Virus record (IMG/VR): IMGVR_UViG_3300022668_000024
Location: 1-47,793 of that record
DNA from: a virus
Strand: one strand, 5' to 3'
Length of the DNA stretch: 47,793 bases
The notes under the pieces: generated by a model
What the model saw: the letters and a program-made list of their open reading frames with translations, nothing else
What the model was told of the DNA's origin: nothing
The model's database searches: none
Translations under genes and position numbers: made by a program
In this document: positions 1-5,784 of the stretch, piece after piece
Numbering within the stretch: position 1 is the first letter of the stretch
How the letters are laid out: each line of letters starts with the position of its first letter

Positions 1-31
1 GTAAATTGGCGGCTTTTATGTTCGTATAAAT

Positions 32-44
32 TAACTATTAATAA
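32..44. repeat. 13-bp direct repeat, left copy
   Basis: The sequence TAACTATTAATAA occurs here and again at 4926-4938, just before the recombinase gene. The two copies bracket the whole cassette array. It is AT-rich, so chance is possible, but its placement suits an array boundary or a recombinase-related site. This is inference. Confidence 0.35.
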
Positions 45-89
45 CGCTAGCCTGCTTAATTGCACAATAGATAAAATTGATAGCCGCTT

Positions 90-224
90 GCATACAACGA
101 TAAAGTATATGTGGTCGGTTGCATTTAATGGCACGAAACTACGCATACCAACGAAACTAAATAAATGAGATAAAACAACAATAACGAACTAAGCTGCAAC
201 TGCCATATATACGGTGTTGTACGC
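90..224 (+). repeat. attC-like imperfect inverted repeat 1
   Basis: The left arm (90-123) and right arm (195-224) pair when folded: an outer ACAAC/GTTGT box, then an inner GTATATGTGG / CCATATATAC box, then GTTGCA / TGCAAC. The left arm carries six bases between AAC and GTATAT, while the right arm carries three between ATATAC and GTT, so the stem has a fixed asymmetric unpaired spacer. About 70 bases lie in the loop. The same layout recurs at 2972/3862 and at 4573-4695. It resembles integron attC sites (R''-L''-loop-L'-R'). Recombination at the site is inferred. Confidence 0.65.
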
Positions 225-242
225 TTTTAAAAATGCGGAATT

Positions 243-557
243 ATGAATGGAAAATATTTAATAAATACAGATGAATGGTTTGTTGCACCTGATGGGAATA
301 GCTACAAAGCAGCGTGGGGAGATGTTGAAATAGTAGAAGATACTTTTTTAGGACTAAAGACCAATCGAAATAGCAGTAACTGGTTTGCTAAAGTGGGGAG
401 CGAGGATAAGCATGTTATAATTGCAGGATGTCAAATACACTATGCTGTGAAATGTGATAAAAAACCAAACACCAAGCCGAGCGAGGAGTGGCAAGCAGAT
501 GCAACCAATGGAATAAAGGAGTTTAAAGCACCATGCCGAATATATGTAGCACAGTAG
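243..557 (+). CDS. Hypothetical protein, 104 aa, first gene of the cassette array
   Basis: Not recognised. It is a soluble protein with no signal peptide or membrane segment, rich in aromatic residues and charged turns (a DEWFVAPDG start, a WFAKVG segment in the middle). It begins at the ATG 18 bases after the attC-like repeat at 90-224, so it sits as the first single-gene unit of the array. Downstream, at about 569, a GCGTACAA stretch resembles the outer box of the attC-like sites. The leader has no Shine-Dalgarno, as is usual here. Confidence 0.6.
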   Translation: MNGKYLINTDEWFVAPDGNSYKAAWGDVEIVEDTFLGLKTNRNSSNWFAKVGSEDKHVIIAGCQIHYAVKCDKKPNTKPSEEWQADATNGIKEFKAPCRIYVAQ

Positions 558-622
558 CATTTTTTATTGCGTACAATGGTTTGGTATGTTTAGAAAATTT
601 AACGACTTAAAAGAACAGAATT

Positions 623-886
623 ATGAATACTATATTACAAAAAATAATGGAACTTGGAGCTATGGAAGATAGAGCTTGTTCAGAGAAAGAAAGAAAACTG
701 ATAATTAATGAAGCAGAAGTACTTTATAATAAGCACTTAGCTGAGTTAAATTTATTAAATATACCTGATGTTGTACAGCAAAGCGAACTGTTAAGTGGCT
801 TTAAATATTGGTATGACCATTTAAGTGTTGAAGAAGATAATATGTACGAAGGTAGGTATGAAGAGGTATATTTAGCCACTTTATAG
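623..886 (+). CDS. Hypothetical protein, 87 aa, with SELL-WY motif
   Basis: Not recognised. The protein is helical and acidic. The segment QQSELLSGFKYWYDHL (residues about 52-67) resembles SQRSELLAFLVWYRKQ in the 1980-2318 protein of the same array, and both are followed by a motif ending near the C-terminus with Tyr and Glu. The two may be distant relatives carried as separate cassettes. The stop codon runs straight into GTGTACAACG, which resembles the outer box of the attC-like repeats. Confidence 0.6.
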   Translation: MNTILQKIMELGAMEDRACSEKERKLIINEAEVLYNKHLAELNLLNIPDVVQQSELLSGFKYWYDHLSVEEDNMYEGRYEEVYLATL

Positions 887-969
887 TGTACAACGAGATT
901 AATAAACGTTGAGCCGTAATGAAACGAGAAAATATAACACGAGTACGAATGATTAATTAAATTTTTAAT

Positions 970-1344
970 ATGAAAACCACACCAATAAAATTACTTACTG
1001 AGCAAATTAATCATTACAAAACGTTTAAGCAGATAGTGATTGATAAGTATAAAAATGGAGAAATTACAGAGCTAAAAAAGGATTCTGTAATTTGCGATAC
1101 TGAAAAGCAGATACAAACTTTTGAAGATGCTGTAAAAAATTTAACACCACAGCCGAAACCACGAGCTAATAAAAAGGCTTTACGTTTATTTGGTGTTGTG
1201 CCTAGTTTTTTACAGGTATTTGTTGAAATACTTGGCTATTGCGCTTTTTCTTATATAGTGTGCTTTTTAATATTTGGCGGTGAATTTCATATTGAGATAT
1301 ACTTTAAAGAAAGTATTGAAGCATTAAAGAATATTTTAAATTAG
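970..1344 (+). CDS. Hypothetical membrane protein, 124 aa
   Basis: Not recognised. The N-terminal 80 residues are charged and helical (probable short coiled coil around residues 10-55). Residues about 78-105 are hydrophobic, including the run LGYCAFSYIVCFLIFGG, and form one likely membrane-spanning segment. The protein is therefore probably anchored with the N-terminal part in the cytoplasm. A GGCACAACGG sequence overlapping the stop resembles the outer box of the array's inverted repeats. Confidence 0.55.
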   Translation: MKTTPIKLLTEQINHYKTFKQIVIDKYKNGEITELKKDSVICDTEKQIQTFEDAVKNLTPQPKPRANKKALRLFGVVPSFLQVFVEILGYCAFSYIVCFLIFGGEFHIEIYFKESIEALKNILN

Positions 1345-1421
1345 GCACAACGGTTTACATAAGAATAGTACGAGAAATTTAGTATAAATTATAAACGAGA
1401 TAAAAATTAAAATTGATTATT

Positions 1422-1607
1422 ATGACTAAATCTTTAACATTTACATGGGGAGTTTGCGAAATGCATATTTCCGATACTGACGAAGAAAAAGAAATTGGGA
1501 TTAGCATTCTCGATAAACAAACAGAAGATGAAAATGTGGTGTATTTAACTGAGGAAAATATTATTTCGCTTAGAGAACACTTAGACTACATTATAGCTAA
1601 ATTTTAA
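1422..1607 (+). CDS. Small acidic hypothetical protein, 61 aa
   Basis: Not recognised. The ATG at 1422 (MTKSLTFTWG...) is preferred to the in-frame one at 1413, because starts in this array are typically preceded by ATT or TATT directly before ATG. The protein is acidic (a DTDEEKE segment) with beta-strand-like ends. It lies between the membrane-protein cassette and a GTTAGGC core-like site at 1668. Confidence 0.5.
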   Translation: MTKSLTFTWGVCEMHISDTDEEKEIGISILDKQTEDENVVYLTEENIISLREHLDYIIAKF

Positions 1608-1667
1608 TTGATTAATTAACCACCACCGCAACTACGAGCGCAACAATAAGTATTATTTTTATGTGTT

Positions 1668-1899
1668 GTTAGGCTTTCGTTTTTGTGGGTAGGCAACTGA
1701 AATAAAAAGATGGATAAATTAAATTTAAGACTTAGAAAGCCAAGTAGCACTGGAATTTTTCACGATAGCAGAGCAGATACAGCTCTTTTTATGAAAGTTT
1801 TTAATGCACTACACGACAAGGTAAATGAAATGATTGATGAAAACACCGAACTTAAAAAACGCATTAAAGATTTAGAAGCGAGGGCAAATGAAGCCTAAC
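1668..1899 (+). repeat. Integron-like cassette ends GTTAGGC ... GCCTAAC
   Basis: GTTAGGC at 1668-1674 fits the integron core-site consensus GTTRRRY. GCCTAAC at 1893-1899 fits its complement RYYYAAC. They bracket the single gene 1710-1898 exactly as the two ends of a classical integron cassette would, with the second box overlapping the stop codon. Recombination activity is not shown by sequence alone. Confidence 0.5.
1710..1898 (+). CDS. Small coiled-coil hypothetical protein, 62 aa
   Basis: Not recognised. Residues about 27-60 are a heptad-like charged helix (NEMIDENTELKKRIKDLEAR), suggesting an oligomerising coiled coil. The N-terminal part is basic. It is the only gene between the GTTAGGC and GCCTAAC boxes at 1668 and 1893, so it looks like a one-gene cassette. 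Confidence 0.55.
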   Translation: MDKLNLRLRKPSSTGIFHDSRADTALFMKVFNALHDKVNEMIDENTELKKRIKDLEARANEA

Positions 1900-1979
1900 G
1901 AGCTTGCGGTATGATTTCGTTTGCTCTTCCGAATTAGCACAAAGTAAGAGCGTGATTATAAACTTTAAATAACCGATCG

Positions 1980-2318
1980 ATGGAAATTAGATTAAATATA
2001 TTTGACGAAAACAACAAGTGGGTGGGTCAGGAATACCTTACCGAAAAAGGGAAATGGCTACACAGGTGGACGCTAAAAGGAGAGCTTGAAAAGGGTAGTT
2101 GGCGAGGGCGAGCCAAAGGAGATAATGAGTTGAATTGGAGGTATGAGCGTGTGGAGGAAGAAGATTCAATCGGGCTAAAAGCAAATGAATTATTACCGCA
2201 TGTTAGCCAGCGAAGCGAACTTTTGGCTTTTTTGGTGTGGTATAGAAAACAGCCAGATTTGCATAGTTGGAGTGTTGACATTGCGGTGCAACAGTATGAA
2301 AAAGCCAATTGTGGCTAA
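1980..2318 (+). CDS. Hypothetical protein, 112 aa, with SELL-WY motif
   Basis: Not recognised. The N-terminal half is Trp- and Gly-rich with predicted strands (KGKWLHRWTLKG). The C-terminal third (SQRSELLAFLVWYRKQ, then SVDIAVQQY) matches the style of the 623-886 protein. The stop overlaps the left arm of a 15-bp perfect inverted repeat (2317-2331 with 2668-2682). It is probably a cassette gene. Confidence 0.6.
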   Translation: MEIRLNIFDENNKWVGQEYLTEKGKWLHRWTLKGELEKGSWRGRAKGDNELNWRYERVEEEDSIGLKANELLPHVSQRSELLAFLVWYRKQPDLHSWSVDIAVQQYEKANCG

Positions 2319-2379
2319 CGCTCCCGCACAAACGTAGTTTGATAAATGAGTAGTGATTTAATATTTAAAACAGTTTATT

Positions 2380-2559
2380 ATGAAAGATTTATTTAATTGG
2401 CTATTTAGTGTCGCAACACTTGCAACATTAGGAGTCACAGTTACAATTATCGTTGATTGCCTTATAAAAGGATCTAATTTCACTATATGGATAGTGCTTG
2501 CAAGTGTGGAGTTACATATTTGGATTTATTACATAAGGAAGGTTTTAAATATAAAATAA
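2380..2559 (+). CDS. Small two-segment membrane protein, 59 aa
   Basis: Not recognised. Two hydrophobic stretches (residues about 6-29 and 34-52) separated by the polar turn KGSN suggest a two-span membrane hairpin. It begins ATG AAA GAT after an ATT triplet, like its neighbours. It sits wholly inside the inverted repeat 2317-2682. Possible roles such as superinfection exclusion or a holin-like function cannot be judged from the sequence. Confidence 0.5.
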   Translation: MKDLFNWLFSVATLATLGVTVTIIVDCLIKGSNFTIWIVLASVELHIWIYYIRKVLNIK

Positions 2560-2579
2560 CGAAAGCATTTAGAGAACTC

Positions 2580-2663
2580 AACAGGTCAAACAGCTCTACT
2601 GCTCCAAATTACGTTTGTGCAATGTTATGTTTCGTTACCGTAGCGGGCAGTAGAGCACCTGTT
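2580..2663 (+). repeat. Long hairpin with 6-base bulge
   Basis: AACAGGT (2580-2586) pairs with ACCTGTT (2657-2663), and GCTCTACTGC (2593-2602) pairs nearly perfectly with GCAGTAGAGC (2647-2656). Six unpaired bases lie on the left arm only. The one-sided bulge is like the asymmetric spacers of the other array repeats and of attC sites. It follows the 59-aa membrane gene. Confidence 0.6.
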
Positions 2664-2739
2664 TAGGTTGTGCGGGAGCGTTATGTTTAAATGGTATTTC
2701 GGGAGTGCCCGAATCTTAAATTAATTAAATTTGTATAAA

Positions 2740-2910
2740 ATGAAACTACTTATCAAATACTTGGAATTAAAATTGAAATGGTTACGTATTTTGCATAGAA
2801 CATTATTTGGATTTGATGGACTGCATACTGATAGAGAAATGAAGTTTAGGTACGGGAAAATGTATCCTTTGCAAAATTTCATTGAGCTACTTAAGCGAAA
2901 ATTTAAATAA
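2740..2910 (+). CDS. Small basic hypothetical protein, 56 aa
   Basis: Not recognised. It is a Lys/Arg-rich, Leu-rich small protein (MKLLIKYLELKLKWLRILHR...), possibly membrane-associated or nucleic-acid binding. A short TTCGGG/CCCGAA hairpin (2698-2713) lies just upstream, and TAAATTTG at 2726-2733 matches the Bacteroidetes -7 element but without a convincing -33 element. The assignment rests on the open frame and the position between array repeats. Confidence 0.4.
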   Translation: MKLLIKYLELKLKWLRILHRTLFGFDGLHTDREMKFRYGKMYPLQNFIELLKRKFK

Positions 2911-2971
2911 TTTTAGAGGCACGAAGAAATGACCAAAGCTTAGCACTAGGCTAAGCGGAGGTAATGAAAAC

Positions 2972-3890
2972 ATAACGGCTTTGTATATGGTGCGTTGCAT
3001 CACTAAAGTTGATTTGAAAAACTAAACTAAAAATTTTAAAAATGAGCGATGGACAATTAGGCTTTGCCTACAATACGATAAATTACACCCTAATAACTAA
3101 GTTTAAAAACAGAGAGGTAAAAGCAAAAAATACTTTTACTATTAGTGAGATTGAAAAAGCAACAGCGTATGCATTTATAAGAACTTACCACTATTTAAAA
3201 GATGCTAAGTTTTTTGCTAAATATTGCTATGGCTTGTTTTTAGATGGGGAGTTAGTTGGAGCTGCAACGTATAGCAACCCACAAGGCATAGTGGCTATGA
3301 AAAGTTGGTTTAACTTGCCTAACAGCGACCAAAGTGTATTAGAACTTAGTAGGCTTTGTATGTTGCCCGAATTAAATGGAACTAATGCAACAAGTTACCT
3401 ATTAGGTAATAGCATGAAGCAGTTAAAAAGCCATGACATAAAAGCCGTTATAACTTTAGCTGACAATAGTAGGCATGTTGGGAGCATTTACCAAGTTTGT
3501 AATTTTAAATACTACGGATTAACCGATAAGAAAACAGATTTTTATGTTGCCGATGGTAGAGTAAACCCAAGAGGTAAAACAAAAGACTTGCATGGTGTAT
3601 GGCTGCCTAGAACTAGAAAGCATAGATATTGCTTTTTACTTGACAAGAAAATGCCAATAATGATAACAGAGCAAGATAGACCAACTTTAACAGAAACAGA
3701 TGATTATGATTGTTGTAATAAAACTAATAAAGTGTTTGATAAAAGGTTTAAAGAATGGTACACTTGCCCTAAATGTACAGAGCGTATTAAGTTGTTAGAA
3801 AAAGAGGGAGGGGATTTTTAAAATTTGACAATTACGCACAAATGCTAATTAAATGAACTGAAGCAATGCACTATATACGTTGTTAGGCAC
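2972..3890 (+). repeat. Split attC-like arms flanking the Mom-like gene
   Basis: The left arm (2972-3000) and right arm (3862-3890) are complementary: AAC-N6-GTATATGGTGCGTTGC against GCAATGCACTATATAC-N3-GTT. The 6-versus-3 spacer asymmetry matches the compact repeats at 90-224 and 4573-4695. Here the two arms are separated by 860 bases holding one complete 259-aa gene. Either the gene was inserted into the loop of a site, or two different sites were separated by cassette gain. Confidence 0.6.
3042..3821 (+). CDS. Mom-like DNA-modifying acyltransferase (GNAT fold), 259 aa
   Basis: Probably modifies adenines in phage DNA, as phage Mu Mom does, protecting it from host restriction. Residues 49-160 match the Mom family pattern I know: YHYLKD, then YGLFLDGELVGAATYSNP, then VLELSRLCMLPE, NATSYLLGNSMKQL, and the hallmark LADNSRHVGSIYQVCNFKYYG. 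The C-terminal 50 residues add a Cys pair and a CPKC zinc-binding-like motif. It is the only gene between the two complementary arms at 2972 and 3862, so it looks like mobile cargo. The family call is good; the exact chemical modification is unknown. Confidence 0.75.
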   Translation: MSDGQLGFAYNTINYTLITKFKNREVKAKNTFTISEIEKATAYAFIRTYHYLKDAKFFAKYCYGLFLDGELVGAATYSNPQGIVAMKSWFNLPNSDQSVLELSRLCMLPELNGTNATSYLLGNSMKQLKSHDIKAVITLADNSRHVGSIYQVCNFKYYGLTDKKTDFYVADGRVNPRGKTKDLHGVWLPRTRKHRYCFLLDKKMPIMITEQDRPTLTETDDYDCCNKTNKVFDKRFKEWYTCPKCTERIKLLEKEGGDF

Positions 3891-3960
3891 AGTACTTTTT
3901 ATAAGAGCTACTGAGCTACAAATAACAGCGTATAAATTCCTTTTTAGTATTGTGCCTAAC
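3882..3960 (+). repeat. Inverted repeat GTTAGGC...GCCTAAC without a gene
   Basis: GTTAGGCACAGTACT (3882-3896) pairs with AGTATTGTGCCTAAC (3946-3960), with one mismatch. Both ends fit the integron core consensus (GTTRRRY / RYYYAAC). Only about 50 bases and no reading frame lie between, so it is either an empty cassette or a complete folded recombination site. Confidence 0.6.
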
Positions 3961-3974
3961 GAAAATAATAAGAC

Positions 3975-4082
3975 ATGCAAAATATAGATAAATACAGTAG
4001 AAAACTAAACGCTAAATTAACATTAATAGGAGCTATTATACTGGCAGTAGTTAGCTTTTGTTTGTTTTATTTAGTGTTATAA
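3975..4082 (+). CDS. Very small membrane protein, 35 aa
   Basis: Not recognised. After a charged N-terminus (MQNIDKYSRKLNAK) comes one hydrophobic segment of about 18 residues (LIGAIILAVVSFCLFYLVL). This is the arrangement of a single-span small membrane protein. The frame is short, so the call rests on the clean TM profile and the ATG placement directly after the inverted repeat at 3882-3960. Confidence 0.4.
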   Translation: MQNIDKYSRKLNAKLTLIGAIILAVVSFCLFYLVL

Positions 4083-4095
4083 ACTTTTATTAGCG

Positions 4096-4284
4096 ATGGG
4101 AAAAATACATTATAGAGATGGAAGTATTTGCGTAGATGCACCGTATTATGAAAAAGAGAAATGGATAAAGCGTGAAGAGTGGGGAGCTGCATGTGGCTAC
4201 ATTCGAAAAAACACTACCTACGATAAAGAAGCTGTGACTTGTTTTTATTGCAAAAGAGAATTGCAGCGTAGGAATTGTTTATAA
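4096..4284 (+). CDS. Small Cys-containing hypothetical protein, 62 aa
   Basis: Not recognised. It is basic, with Tyr- and Trp-rich N-terminal residues and a C-terminal CFYCKREL pair of cysteines. With the upstream Cys34 this could form a zinc site. The stop codon overlaps the left outer box of the attC-like site 4277-4374, the typical position in this array. Confidence 0.5.
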   Translation: MGKIHYRDGSICVDAPYYEKEKWIKREEWGAACGYIRKNTTYDKEAVTCFYCKRELQRRNCL

Positions 4285-4374
4285 CGTAGATGCGGTATGA
4301 ATAGTGCCGATGCAGAACTATTTAAATTACATACAAAGATTGACAGGCATTATTTATGACCGCTTGTTATAAAC
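4277..4374 (+). repeat. attC-like imperfect inverted repeat 2
   Basis: A compact 98-base site. The outer box GTTTATAAC (4277-4285) is perfectly complementary to GTTATAAAC (4366-4374). Inside it are a 7-versus-3 unpaired spacer and then a paired box (CGGTATGAATAGTGCC against GGCATTATTTATGACCG). This is the cleanest single attC-like structure in the array. The mechanism is inferred. Confidence 0.7.
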
Positions 4375-4384
4375 TGATAAAATT

Positions 4385-4564
4385 ATGGCTTATAAATTAA
4401 AACCAGTACGCTGCGATAATTGCAAACATTGGACACGCAACCCTATATATGATTACGAAGGAGTATGTGATAAAAGCGATAAGATTACAAGAGAACACCA
4501 TGTTTGCAATTTATTACCCACAAATGATGATAGAAGAAATGCGAAAATAGACAAATGGAAATAA
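4385..4564 (+). CDS. Small zinc-finger-like protein, 59 aa
   Basis: Not recognised. The cysteine pattern CDNCKHW (residues 10-16), then VCD and HHVCN, gives four Cys plus His, suggesting a small zinc-binding fold. Similar small CxxC...C...C proteins are common phage hypotheticals. It is a single gene between the attC-like sites 4277-4374 and 4573-4695, so a one-gene cassette. Confidence 0.55.
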   Translation: MAYKLKPVRCDNCKHWTRNPIYDYEGVCDKSDKITREHHVCNLLPTNDDRRNAKIDKWK

Positions 4565-4572
4565 TTTTATTT

Positions 4573-4695
4573 GTTTATAACGTTGTAGTATATGTGGCGT
4601 TGAACACAGAACTACGGAAATGAGATACGGTAACAAATTAAAATAAAAGTTAAACCAAAGCACTGATGCAATGCCATATATACATTGTTGTGTGC
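4573..4695 (+). repeat. attC-like imperfect inverted repeat 3
   Basis: The left arm (4573-4602: outer box TTTATAAC, N6, GTATATGTGGCGTTG) pairs with the right arm (4668-4695: GCAATGCCATATATAC, N3, GTTGTGTGC). The inner 15 bases pair with few mismatches, while the outer boxes differ in the positions that come from the next cassette in an integron model. The structure and spacer asymmetry match the sites at 90-224 and 2972/3862. Confidence 0.7.
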
Positions 4696-4713
4696 TTTTA
4701 AAACTCGATTGAT

Positions 4714-4887
4714 ATGTACTACTTAAAGACAAAAGAATTTAGATATTTAGTGATAAGCTGGGGACGTGATGATGACGACCCCAAATACTTTACAGCTTTT
4801 AAACACAAAGGAAGCTCATTTTTTAAACGATACTCGAAAGTAATTGACATGTGCTTTTGGGGGCGGCGGTTGGTGCTAGAGTTTTAA
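4714..4887 (+). CDS. Small basic hypothetical protein, 57 aa
   Basis: Not recognised. It is a small, aromatic and basic protein (MYYLKTKEFRYLVISWG...). The beta-rich start and the GRRLVLEF end suggest a compact strand-rich fold. It is the last short gene before the recombinase and lies between site 4573-4695 and the terminal half-site at 4889. Confidence 0.5.
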   Translation: MYYLKTKEFRYLVISWGRDDDDPKYFTAFKHKGSSFFKRYSKVIDMCFWGRRLVLEF

Positions 4888-4888
4888 T

Positions 4889-4914
4889 TGCATACAACGA
4901 CAATTTATCACCAC
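4889..4914 (+). repeat. Terminal attC-like half-site
   Basis: GCATACAACGA at 4889-4899 repeats exactly the left arm of site 1 (90-100). No matching right arm was found before the recombinase gene. It appears to be the unpaired end of the array, beside the 13-bp repeat at 4926-4938. Confidence 0.45.
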
Positions 4915-4925
4915 CTAAGCTTAAC

Positions 4926-4938
4926 TAACTATTAATAA
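4926..4938. repeat. 13-bp direct repeat, right copy
   Basis: TAACTATTAATAA, identical to 32-44. It lies in the leader of the recombinase gene and, with the left copy, frames the array. Confidence 0.35.
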
Positions 4939-4953
4939 ATAAATTACAAAATT

Positions 4954-5784
4954 ATGAATACAGACTTTAATAAAAACCGTGTATTGGAATTTAAAAAATA
5001 CTTAACGAATATAAAGCGTTATTCAGATAATACAGTCAGCTCATATATTAGTAGTTTAGTTAAGTTTTTTAATTATTGTCAAAAGGATTCATCAAGAATT
5101 TATATGTCCGATGTTGATGATTATATTGAATATTTAGTTATTCAAAATTTATCATTTAGCACTCAAAATATATTTATAAGCTCTTTAATATTATACTTTA
5201 AAAAATTTCATCCAGAAAGAAGATTTGTAAATAAATTAGAAAGACCAGTTAATCAAGAAACGATACCAGACATATTATCAAAAGATGAAATAAATAAATT
5301 AATTGATTCGTATGATAATATCAAACACAAAGTTATTATAGGCTTTGTTTATTATCATGGTCTCAGAAAATCAGAAGCAATAAGTTTCAAACTATCTGAC
5401 TTTGATAAAGAAAATGGTTCAATTAAAATCAAACAATCAAAAGGTCGCAAAGATCGAATAGTTGGATTAAATTTAAAGTGTAGACAATTATTAATAGCTT
5501 ATTTCAATAAATACCATCCTATAGATTATTTATTTAACGGCCAAAATTCAGATCAATATTCGGCATCATCAATGGACAAAGTTTTAAAAAAAGGACTTAA
5601 AAAATGCAAAATAACAAAACATATTACCTTACATTCATTACGACACTCCTTCGCTTGCCACTTATATAATCAAGGTGTTAAGCTTGACAAAATACAATTA
5701 ATTCTAGGCCATTCATCGCCTAATACTACAAAAATATATGCAAAATTATCTGAAGAAAATATAATTAATATCCAAGTCGCTTAA
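4954..5784 (+). CDS. Tyrosine recombinase (Xer/phage integrase type), 276 aa
   Basis: Cuts and rejoins DNA by a 3'-phosphotyrosine mechanism. All catalytic residues are visible: Arg138 (HGLRKSE), Lys163 region (SKGRKDR), His227 and Arg230 (HSLRHSFA), His253 (LGHSS) and Tyr262 (KIYAKLS). Residues 1-95 form the usual SAM-like core-binding domain. The length is that of XerC/XerD. It lacks the extra helix insertion that marks integron integrases between the Lys region and HxxR. It stands at the end of the cassette array, and the helicase gene begins 3 bases after its stop. It could integrate the phage, shuffle the cassettes, or both; the sequence does not decide. Confidence 0.93.
   Translation: MNTDFNKNRVLEFKKYLTNIKRYSDNTVSSYISSLVKFFNYCQKDSSRIYMSDVDDYIEYLVIQNLSFSTQNIFISSLILYFKKFHPERRFVNKLERPVNQETIPDILSKDEINKLIDSYDNIKHKVIIGFVYYHGLRKSEAISFKLSDFDKENGSIKIKQSKGRKDRIVGLNLKCRQLLIAYFNKYHPIDYLFNGQNSDQYSASSMDKVLKKGLKKCKITKHITLHSLRHSFACHLYNQGVKLDKIQLILGHSSPNTTKIYAKLSEENIINIQVA

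Follow-up and report, generated by a model that had tools for sequence, protein, structure and literature searches.

The entire IMG/VR virus record IMGVR_UViG_3300022668_000024 (47,793 bases, hereafter the window) carries at its left end a row of small genes separated by inverted repeats, all genes on the plus strand, and the question raised by this locus is whether it is an integron and, if so, what moves its units. Judging from its minus-strand genes for tail sheath, tape measure, baseplate hub, portal and large terminase, the window genome is that of a contractile-tailed phage. An earlier note, made from the sequence alone, had read the repeats as an integron-like array letting a phage swap small accessory genes, and this reading was supported by an attC-model search and by comparison of related phages. 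Its array stood, but it had overlooked the adjacent tyrosine recombinase gene (4954-5784); the array is no orphan, and what accompanies it is a recombinase other than the standard integron integrase. We consider it very likely, from the sequence comparisons below, that the locus is a complete phage-borne integron-like platform composed of the array, an attI-like point at its 3' end and a dedicated XerA-type recombinase encoded directly after it.

The array spans positions 88-4898 and comprises ten attC-like sites and ten gene units that are held together by two alternating pairings: the arms of a site pair across its loop, and the GTT end of a unit pairs over 8-21 nt with the AAC end of the same unit, as expected of a cassette that was once circular, with both boxes in one site. 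When boxes were linked through these two kinds of pairing by dynamic programming, the window yielded a chain of 16 pairs with a score of 33, compared with scores of at most 12.8 and at most six links in 1000 dinucleotide shuffles and scores of at most 13.1 in the other 5-kb pieces of the window genome. The unit-end pairing sum was 72.5, against a mean of 18.5 and a maximum of 57.5 in 20,000 permutations of start and end partners. Swapped controls gave the same picture, with unit ends pairing in 97% of true versus 6.5% of swapped pairs and an arm score of 13.7 versus 4.5. The array is genuine and far from chance.

To this can be added a covariance model, R1, that was trained on 32 sites from other loci, none of them from the window. 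Its structure has invariant outer boxes and 24 pairs, 19 of them with compensatory changes, a count that leans towards structure since the input sites had been pre-chosen for complementary arms. The model found the attC-like structure that the earlier note had expected: four hits fall in the window array (sites S1, S10, S9 and S8, E from 8.6e-10 to 0.004) and nothing else below E 0.1 on either strand of the 47.8-kb genome, sites with loops longer than 300 nt being out of its reach. The covariation shows that the hairpin folding of the sites is conserved, and the sites combine conserved structure with variable sequence and RYYYAAC/GTTRRRY boxes, as attC sites do. Genes that read in the same direction and are separated by long hairpins, whose transcribed strand has G-U wobbles, could also be explained if the hairpins terminated transcription or served in RNA processing and took no part in recombination. 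We regard this explanation as extremely improbable, since the hairpins have fixed AAC and GTT borders, the unit ends pair across genes, many hairpins enclose coding sequence or overlap open reading frames (ORFs) that terminators would interrupt, and Rfam has no family matching the array region; it is also contradicted by the exact exchange of units at AAC in the phage series described next, and termination would be at most an added function.

Exact gain or loss of cassettes was found in phages other than that of the window, namely in the cultured Polaribacter phage Freya and in pairs of viral contigs. The Freya records, numbered F1 to F10, differ only by whole units and are otherwise identical in the compared stretch. 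Relative to F9, F10 has 307 bp more at attI, as has F6 relative to F5 (472 bp); F5 exceeds F4 by 902 bp, F8 is without an internal 902-bp unit, and F4 exceeds F1 by 842 bp, these differences having no assigned direction. Contigs L002 and L004 have 1357 bp in common at 100% identity, from ACTAAC to ATAAC, with flanks that are unrelated up to the box; L120 and L124 have one unit of 495 bp in common (99.4%), and a 277-bp unit common to L130 and L142 abuts attI in the former and a further unit in the latter. Homologous recombination between similar repeats, for which the conserved site-plus-leader module of about 130 bp in some units could provide the substrate, is a very unlikely source of these differences. 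The Freya junctions share just 3-11 nt (AAC for F9/F10, TACCAAC for F5/F6, CAAC for F4/F5, CAAC for F8 and TTGTTTACAAC for F1/F4) in sequence that is otherwise identical, the common stretches are too short, and the L002/L004 flanks, again, are unrelated up to the box.

The exchange data also locate the ends of the units. Every observed end coincides with an AAC box located 3' of a gene. The single-unit differences anticipated by the earlier note are exact (Freya, L002/L004, L120/L124 and L130/L142), but their ends are at this AAC (GTT on the opposite strand) and not at the GTT 5' of the gene. Among the ORFs of phage arrays, 89 of 282 would be cut by ends at the GTT box and 13 by ends at the AAC box. 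The classical polarity, a gene followed by its attC with the cut between G and TT of the downstream R' box, was not found, and it was dropped on account of the 89 cut ORFs and the exchange ends at AAC. Domain shuffling between units, considered for ORFs that cross a GTT box, was dropped, as such ORFs stay in one unit when the ends are at AAC. The position of the ends indicates that a gene moves together with the site ahead of it, a mirrored version of the classical cassette, and since units end at AAC, gene starts or an entire Mom gene located in a site loop remain within one unit. The site-plus-leader module (with TTGTTGTGTGTAGTACGGAATTTAAGCCACAAACTTTATTAAAATG) recurs with 86-97% identity in many phages and in some bacteria, where it precedes different genes (L055-L085; e.g. 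L056 8797-8930), which agrees with unit ends at AAC.

What, then, moves the units? The recombinase gene (4954-5784, plus strand) starts 55 nt after the last AAC box, which closes the last unit, and encodes a XerA-like tyrosine recombinase of 276 amino acids, our candidate for the cassette integrase. Its best NCBIfam model is NF040815 (E 9.9e-54; 183 bits, under the equivalog cut-off of 220). Against the IntI profile TIGR02249 it scored 135 bits, with a cut-off of 265, and the central part of the profile around the IntI insertion was unmatched; ten relatives scored 92-207 bits, all under the cut-off. In the window protein and its relatives the best profile stretch ends before or within about positions 180-205, and none spans the insertion. 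The catalytic residues R138, K163, H227, R230, H253 and Y262 are invariant across 38 relatives, and the interval D167-H227, where IntI has its insertion, is 55-61 residues long in all 38 rows. The structure model (predicted local distance difference test, pLDDT, 91.9) has as its closest solved fold by E-value XerA 5hxy, followed by IntI4 2a3v, and 4a8e is also among the nearest solved structures to the XerA-like recombinases. IntI is defined by an extra domain (PMC9668308). The window recombinase is without this additional domain near patch III and is not an IntI family integrase; its sequence and fold are those of simple Xer recombinases with the residues R-K-H-R-H-Y. Known XerA proteins resolve chromosome dimers at dif, whereas the recombinases described here, alike in sequence and predicted fold, occur in association with cassette arrays and an attI-like site. 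The locus works like an integron and is not filed as an IntI integron.

A Mom-gene search led to phage contigs with similar arrays, and searching next with a profile built on four recombinases yielded 80 viral loci. Among 47 non-redundant loci with at least 1.5 kb upstream, the window and L107 included, an array lies upstream of the recombinase in 44, of which 35 end within 150 nt of the recombinase start; downstream, a chain over the threshold occurs in 4 of 66 loci, and in none of 235 shuffles. In most relatives the motif AACTATTATATATAAA or a close variant is present between the last AAC and the start codon, 36-55 nt before the start. An insertion point adjoining the integrase gene, as expected of attI, is therefore found in the relatives as a conserved motif exactly at which new units appear. 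The window has its last AAC box at 4896-4898 and a putative attI-like stretch at 4896-4953, up to the recombinase start, at the same place and distance as the motif of the relatives, and we infer an attI in the window itself from this position. The 16-nt near-repeat AAYTAACTATTAATAA, at 29-44 and 4923-4938, flanks the array and resembles the relatives' attI motif AACTATTATATATAA, possibly by chance. From the tight co-localisation with the array we also infer that the recombinase may be the catalyst of unit movement.

Alternatively, the array could be an orphan, a cluster of attC sites without integrase (CALIN) that is moved in trans by an integron integrase of the host, with the adjoining recombinase serving merely as a lysogeny integrase. 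Indeed, several phages with such arrays, P12002L among them, have no tyrosine recombinase in their record, one P12002L attC site is functional with IntI1 (Qi et al., PMC9892861), and the Freya and Ingeline recombinases have been annotated as integrases and taken to indicate that these phages are temperate (PMC8776804). We nevertheless judge this unlikely. The recombinase gene lies at the same end of the array in many unrelated phages, usually 36-55 nt from the last box and with the attI-like motif between them, so that the window, with its 55 nt, has the layout of its relatives and not that of a CALIN. Moreover, the new Freya units appear exactly at the attI-like position by the recombinase, no IntI above the TIGR02249 cut-off was found among the records and genomes searched, and related recombinases also accompany arrays in bacterial chromosomes.

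Several observations weigh against a dedicated platform in the window. No close relatives of its recombinase and helicase were found in the viral contigs searched, and no close relative of the phage itself was found, so that gain and loss of units are seen only in the arrays of other phages. In a tree without IntI sequences, the window recombinase sits on a long branch and falls outside the main viral clade. The stretch after its last AAC, GACAATTTATCACC, has diverged from the constant motif that follows AAC in the relatives, TATTATATATAAA, and site S2 has a degenerate left box (AAT). Absolute counts are somewhat inflated by the preference of the chain search for complementary boxes, though the shuffles and swapped controls are not. 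Lastly, P12002L has the same kind of site and no recombinase of the XerA-like array kind was found in its genome, so that units are able to persist, or to move, in the absence of a local recombinase.

Based on these features, a mechanism can be proposed. A unit runs from the end of one AAC box to the end of the next, in the order G, arm, loop, arm, GTT, gene, AAC, and in the excised circular unit the AAC and GTT boxes would meet to form a fully matched hairpin. The recombinase would then join the folded site to the attI beside its own gene, crossing over within the AAC box, which reads GTT on the opposite strand. Among arm mismatches, G-T pairs number 393 on the gene-sense strand and 83 on the other, and therefore the sense strand folds better; the wobbles suggest that the recombinase may act on the folded single strand of gene sense, which corresponds to the bottom strand in integron terms because the polarity is reversed. 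Direction could be given by the asymmetric spacers, with five nucleotides between AAC and the stem and one or two between the stem and GTT. Since genes, sites and recombinase are on one strand, the units probably ride on phage transcription.

Chromosomal loci share part of this architecture. In Flavobacteriaceae chromosomes, a site lies within 1.5 kb 3' of the recombinase on the opposite strand in 13 of 23 loci, and in one Psychroserpens assembly (L109, L111) a related recombinase is followed by an array. Extending over at least 27 kb, with some 20 sites and a XerA-like recombinase of 307 amino acids, this array has the look of a large sedentary integron. In phages and chromosomes alike, the sites turn their AAC side towards the recombinase; what is reversed with respect to the sites in phages is the orientation of the genes and of the recombinase gene, with one reading direction in 218 of 225 ORFs and in 48 of 48 arrays. 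We think it likely that these loci form a second, IntI-independent class of integrons, run by XerA-type recombinases without the I2 domain and common in Bacteroidota phages and chromosomes, in which the phage cassettes have been flipped to join phage transcription and the site loops are usable as gene space.

The locus shares with classical integrons an array of one-gene units, hairpins conserved in structure and variable in sequence, GTT/AAC core boxes, pairing of a unit's first bases with its own last box and insertion at a constant attI beside the integrase gene. It differs in that its recombinase is far under the IntI cut-off and without the IntI-specific domain, in that phage units carry the site ahead of the gene and their genes point at the integrase, and in that some site spans exceed 200 nt and contain coding sequence. 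Treponema-type integrons, mentioned in PMC9668308, likewise show integrase and array in an unusual relative orientation, but they employ IntI and it is their integrase gene that is inverted; in the present locus it is the genes that are turned round with respect to the sites, and the recombinase is of a non-IntI kind. Integrons and CALINs have already been described from phages, P12002L included (Qi et al. 2023, PMC9892861). These too have attC-like sites and cassettes, and model R1 also detects the P12002L sites, but they are IntI integrons of bacterial derivation or arrays without integrase, in contrast to the own non-IntI recombinase and attI described here, common in Bacteroidota-type phages. 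In P12002L (L249 29998-39252) the sites, on the minus strand, adjoin a Mom-like gene and several genes for DNA methyltransferases. The open-licence literature searched yielded no account of phage cassettes with reversed polarity or of integrons driven by recombinases of this type, and neither "cassette" nor "insertion" occurs in the text of the Freya paper (PMC8776804).

Integrons have been held to need the extra domain of IntI for folded attC, and the lack of intermediates is a stated limit of the field (PMC7790495). A widespread system whose recombinase is without this domain would be natural material for asking whether the domain is needed or the trait has arisen more than once. Only In0 elements and one complete integron (Salinibacter) were recorded for Bacteroidota with IntegronFinder 2.0 (PMC9024848); if the present interpretation is true, Bacteroidota hold many integrons missed by IntI-specific protein profiles, and phages have a system of their own by which small genes, DNA-modification genes among them, are gained and lost singly. 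Cultured isolates that already differ by single units make the system testable now.

The cargo suggests what such exchange may serve. A minority of the 104 cassette proteins match Pfam, among them four N6/N4 DNA methylases, two Mom proteins, a Dam-type and an EcoRI-type methylase, YopX and GNAT. With Mom in the window and DNA methyltransferases in relatives, these predictions suggest an exchangeable pool of anti-restriction and other accessory genes, and an anti-restriction role is plausible for part of the cargo.

Turning to the individual sites and units, all of which are on the plus strand, the repeats listed in the earlier note are present, as are the core consensus boxes that it had named (GTTAGGC at 1668 and 3882, GCCTAAC at 1893 and 3954). 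Its pairing of 1668 with 1893 and of 3882 with 3954 as outer boxes of sites was mistaken, as each pair represents the two ends of one gene unit. Its list of sites holds but omits those at about 575-772, 892-1197, 1349-1670, 1897-2204, 2317-2682 and 3958-4078. Stop codons do run into the left arm, several overlapping the AAC box (TAAC at 1896, 2316 and 4282). Some boxes depart from the strict core consensus, e.g. GTTGTAC.

S1 (96-218; AAC 96-98, GTT 216-218; arm score 12.7) has a loop without a gene and a covariance hit at 88-229 (E 8.6e-10). It heads unit 1 (99-577), whose ORF 243-557 is of unknown function; at the DNA level, positions 243-445 are about 75% identical to Cellulophaga phage genes and to a gene that lies close to the genome end in Flavobacterium columnare phages of the FCL-2 group. 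In S2 (575-772) the degenerate left box is at 575-577 and the right GTT at 770-772, the arms 583-603 and 745-765 pair at 18 of 21 positions, and the loop contains the start of ORF 623-886 of unit 2 (578-894). S3 (892-1197, arm score 8.9) contains in its loop the start of ORF 970-1344, which continues through the GTT box; the ends of its unit 3 (895-1351), GTTGTGCCTAGTTT at 1195 and AAATTAGGCACAAC at 1351, pair. S4 (1349-1670, arm score 8.5) has ORF 1422-1607 within its loop, and unit 4 (1352-1899) also holds ORF 1710-1898. The loop of S5 (1897-2204, arm score 13.1) contains the start of ORF 1980-2318 of unit 5 (1900-2319), which likewise continues through the GTT box. The proteins of ORFs 623-886 and 1980-2318 are alike in their C-terminal parts past the GTT box (VVQQSELLsgFkyWY and VSQRSELLafLvWY), and the DNA around this box is 77% alike (762-792, 2194-2224).

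S6 (2317-2682, arm score 12.3) is bordered by a 16-nt perfect inverted repeat (2316-2331/2668-2683) and has ORF 2380-2559 in its loop; ORF 2740-2910 follows within unit 6 (2320-2976). The repeat that the earlier note had placed at 2972/3862 is present but forms the arms of a single site, S7 (2974-3884, 911 nt, arm score 11.0), with a complete Mom-family DNA modification gene (3042-3821; PF25680, E 5e-29; phrog_1384, E 7.7e-34) inside its loop. In unit 7 (2977-3960) the unit-end pair after S7 is GTTAGGCACAGTACT at 3882 with AGTATTGTGCCTAAC at 3960. Gene-less mini-units with perfectly or nearly perfectly paired ends (window 3882-3960, 79 bp; L001 7931-7965, 35 bp) follow, in both loci, a Mom-like gene located entirely within a site loop. 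S8 (3958-4078, arm score 9.2; covariance hit 3950-4089, E 0.004) precedes unit 8 (3961-4285; ORFs 3975-4082 and 4096-4284), S9 (4283-4368; hit 4275-4379, E 1.9e-6) unit 9 (4286-4581; ORF 4385-4564; ends paired over 21 nt) and S10 (4579-4689; hit 4571-4700, E 5.1e-8) unit 10 (4582-4898; ORF 4714-4887; ends paired over 20 nt), which adjoins the recombinase.

The Flavobacterium columnare phages have one gene in common with the window; no clear array of the window kind was seen in the stretches of these phages that were inspected, and in the FCL-2-type V156 stretch the chain was weak (score 17-18) and its links implausibly long. The terminase family of the window, phrog_15, is absent from 20 other array records, phage status having been checked on four of those contigs. 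One array-bearing phage (L119/G021, a 78-kb contig) has a 3044-amino-acid ORF, portal phrog_6547 and terminase phrog_6681, and is perhaps crAss-like.

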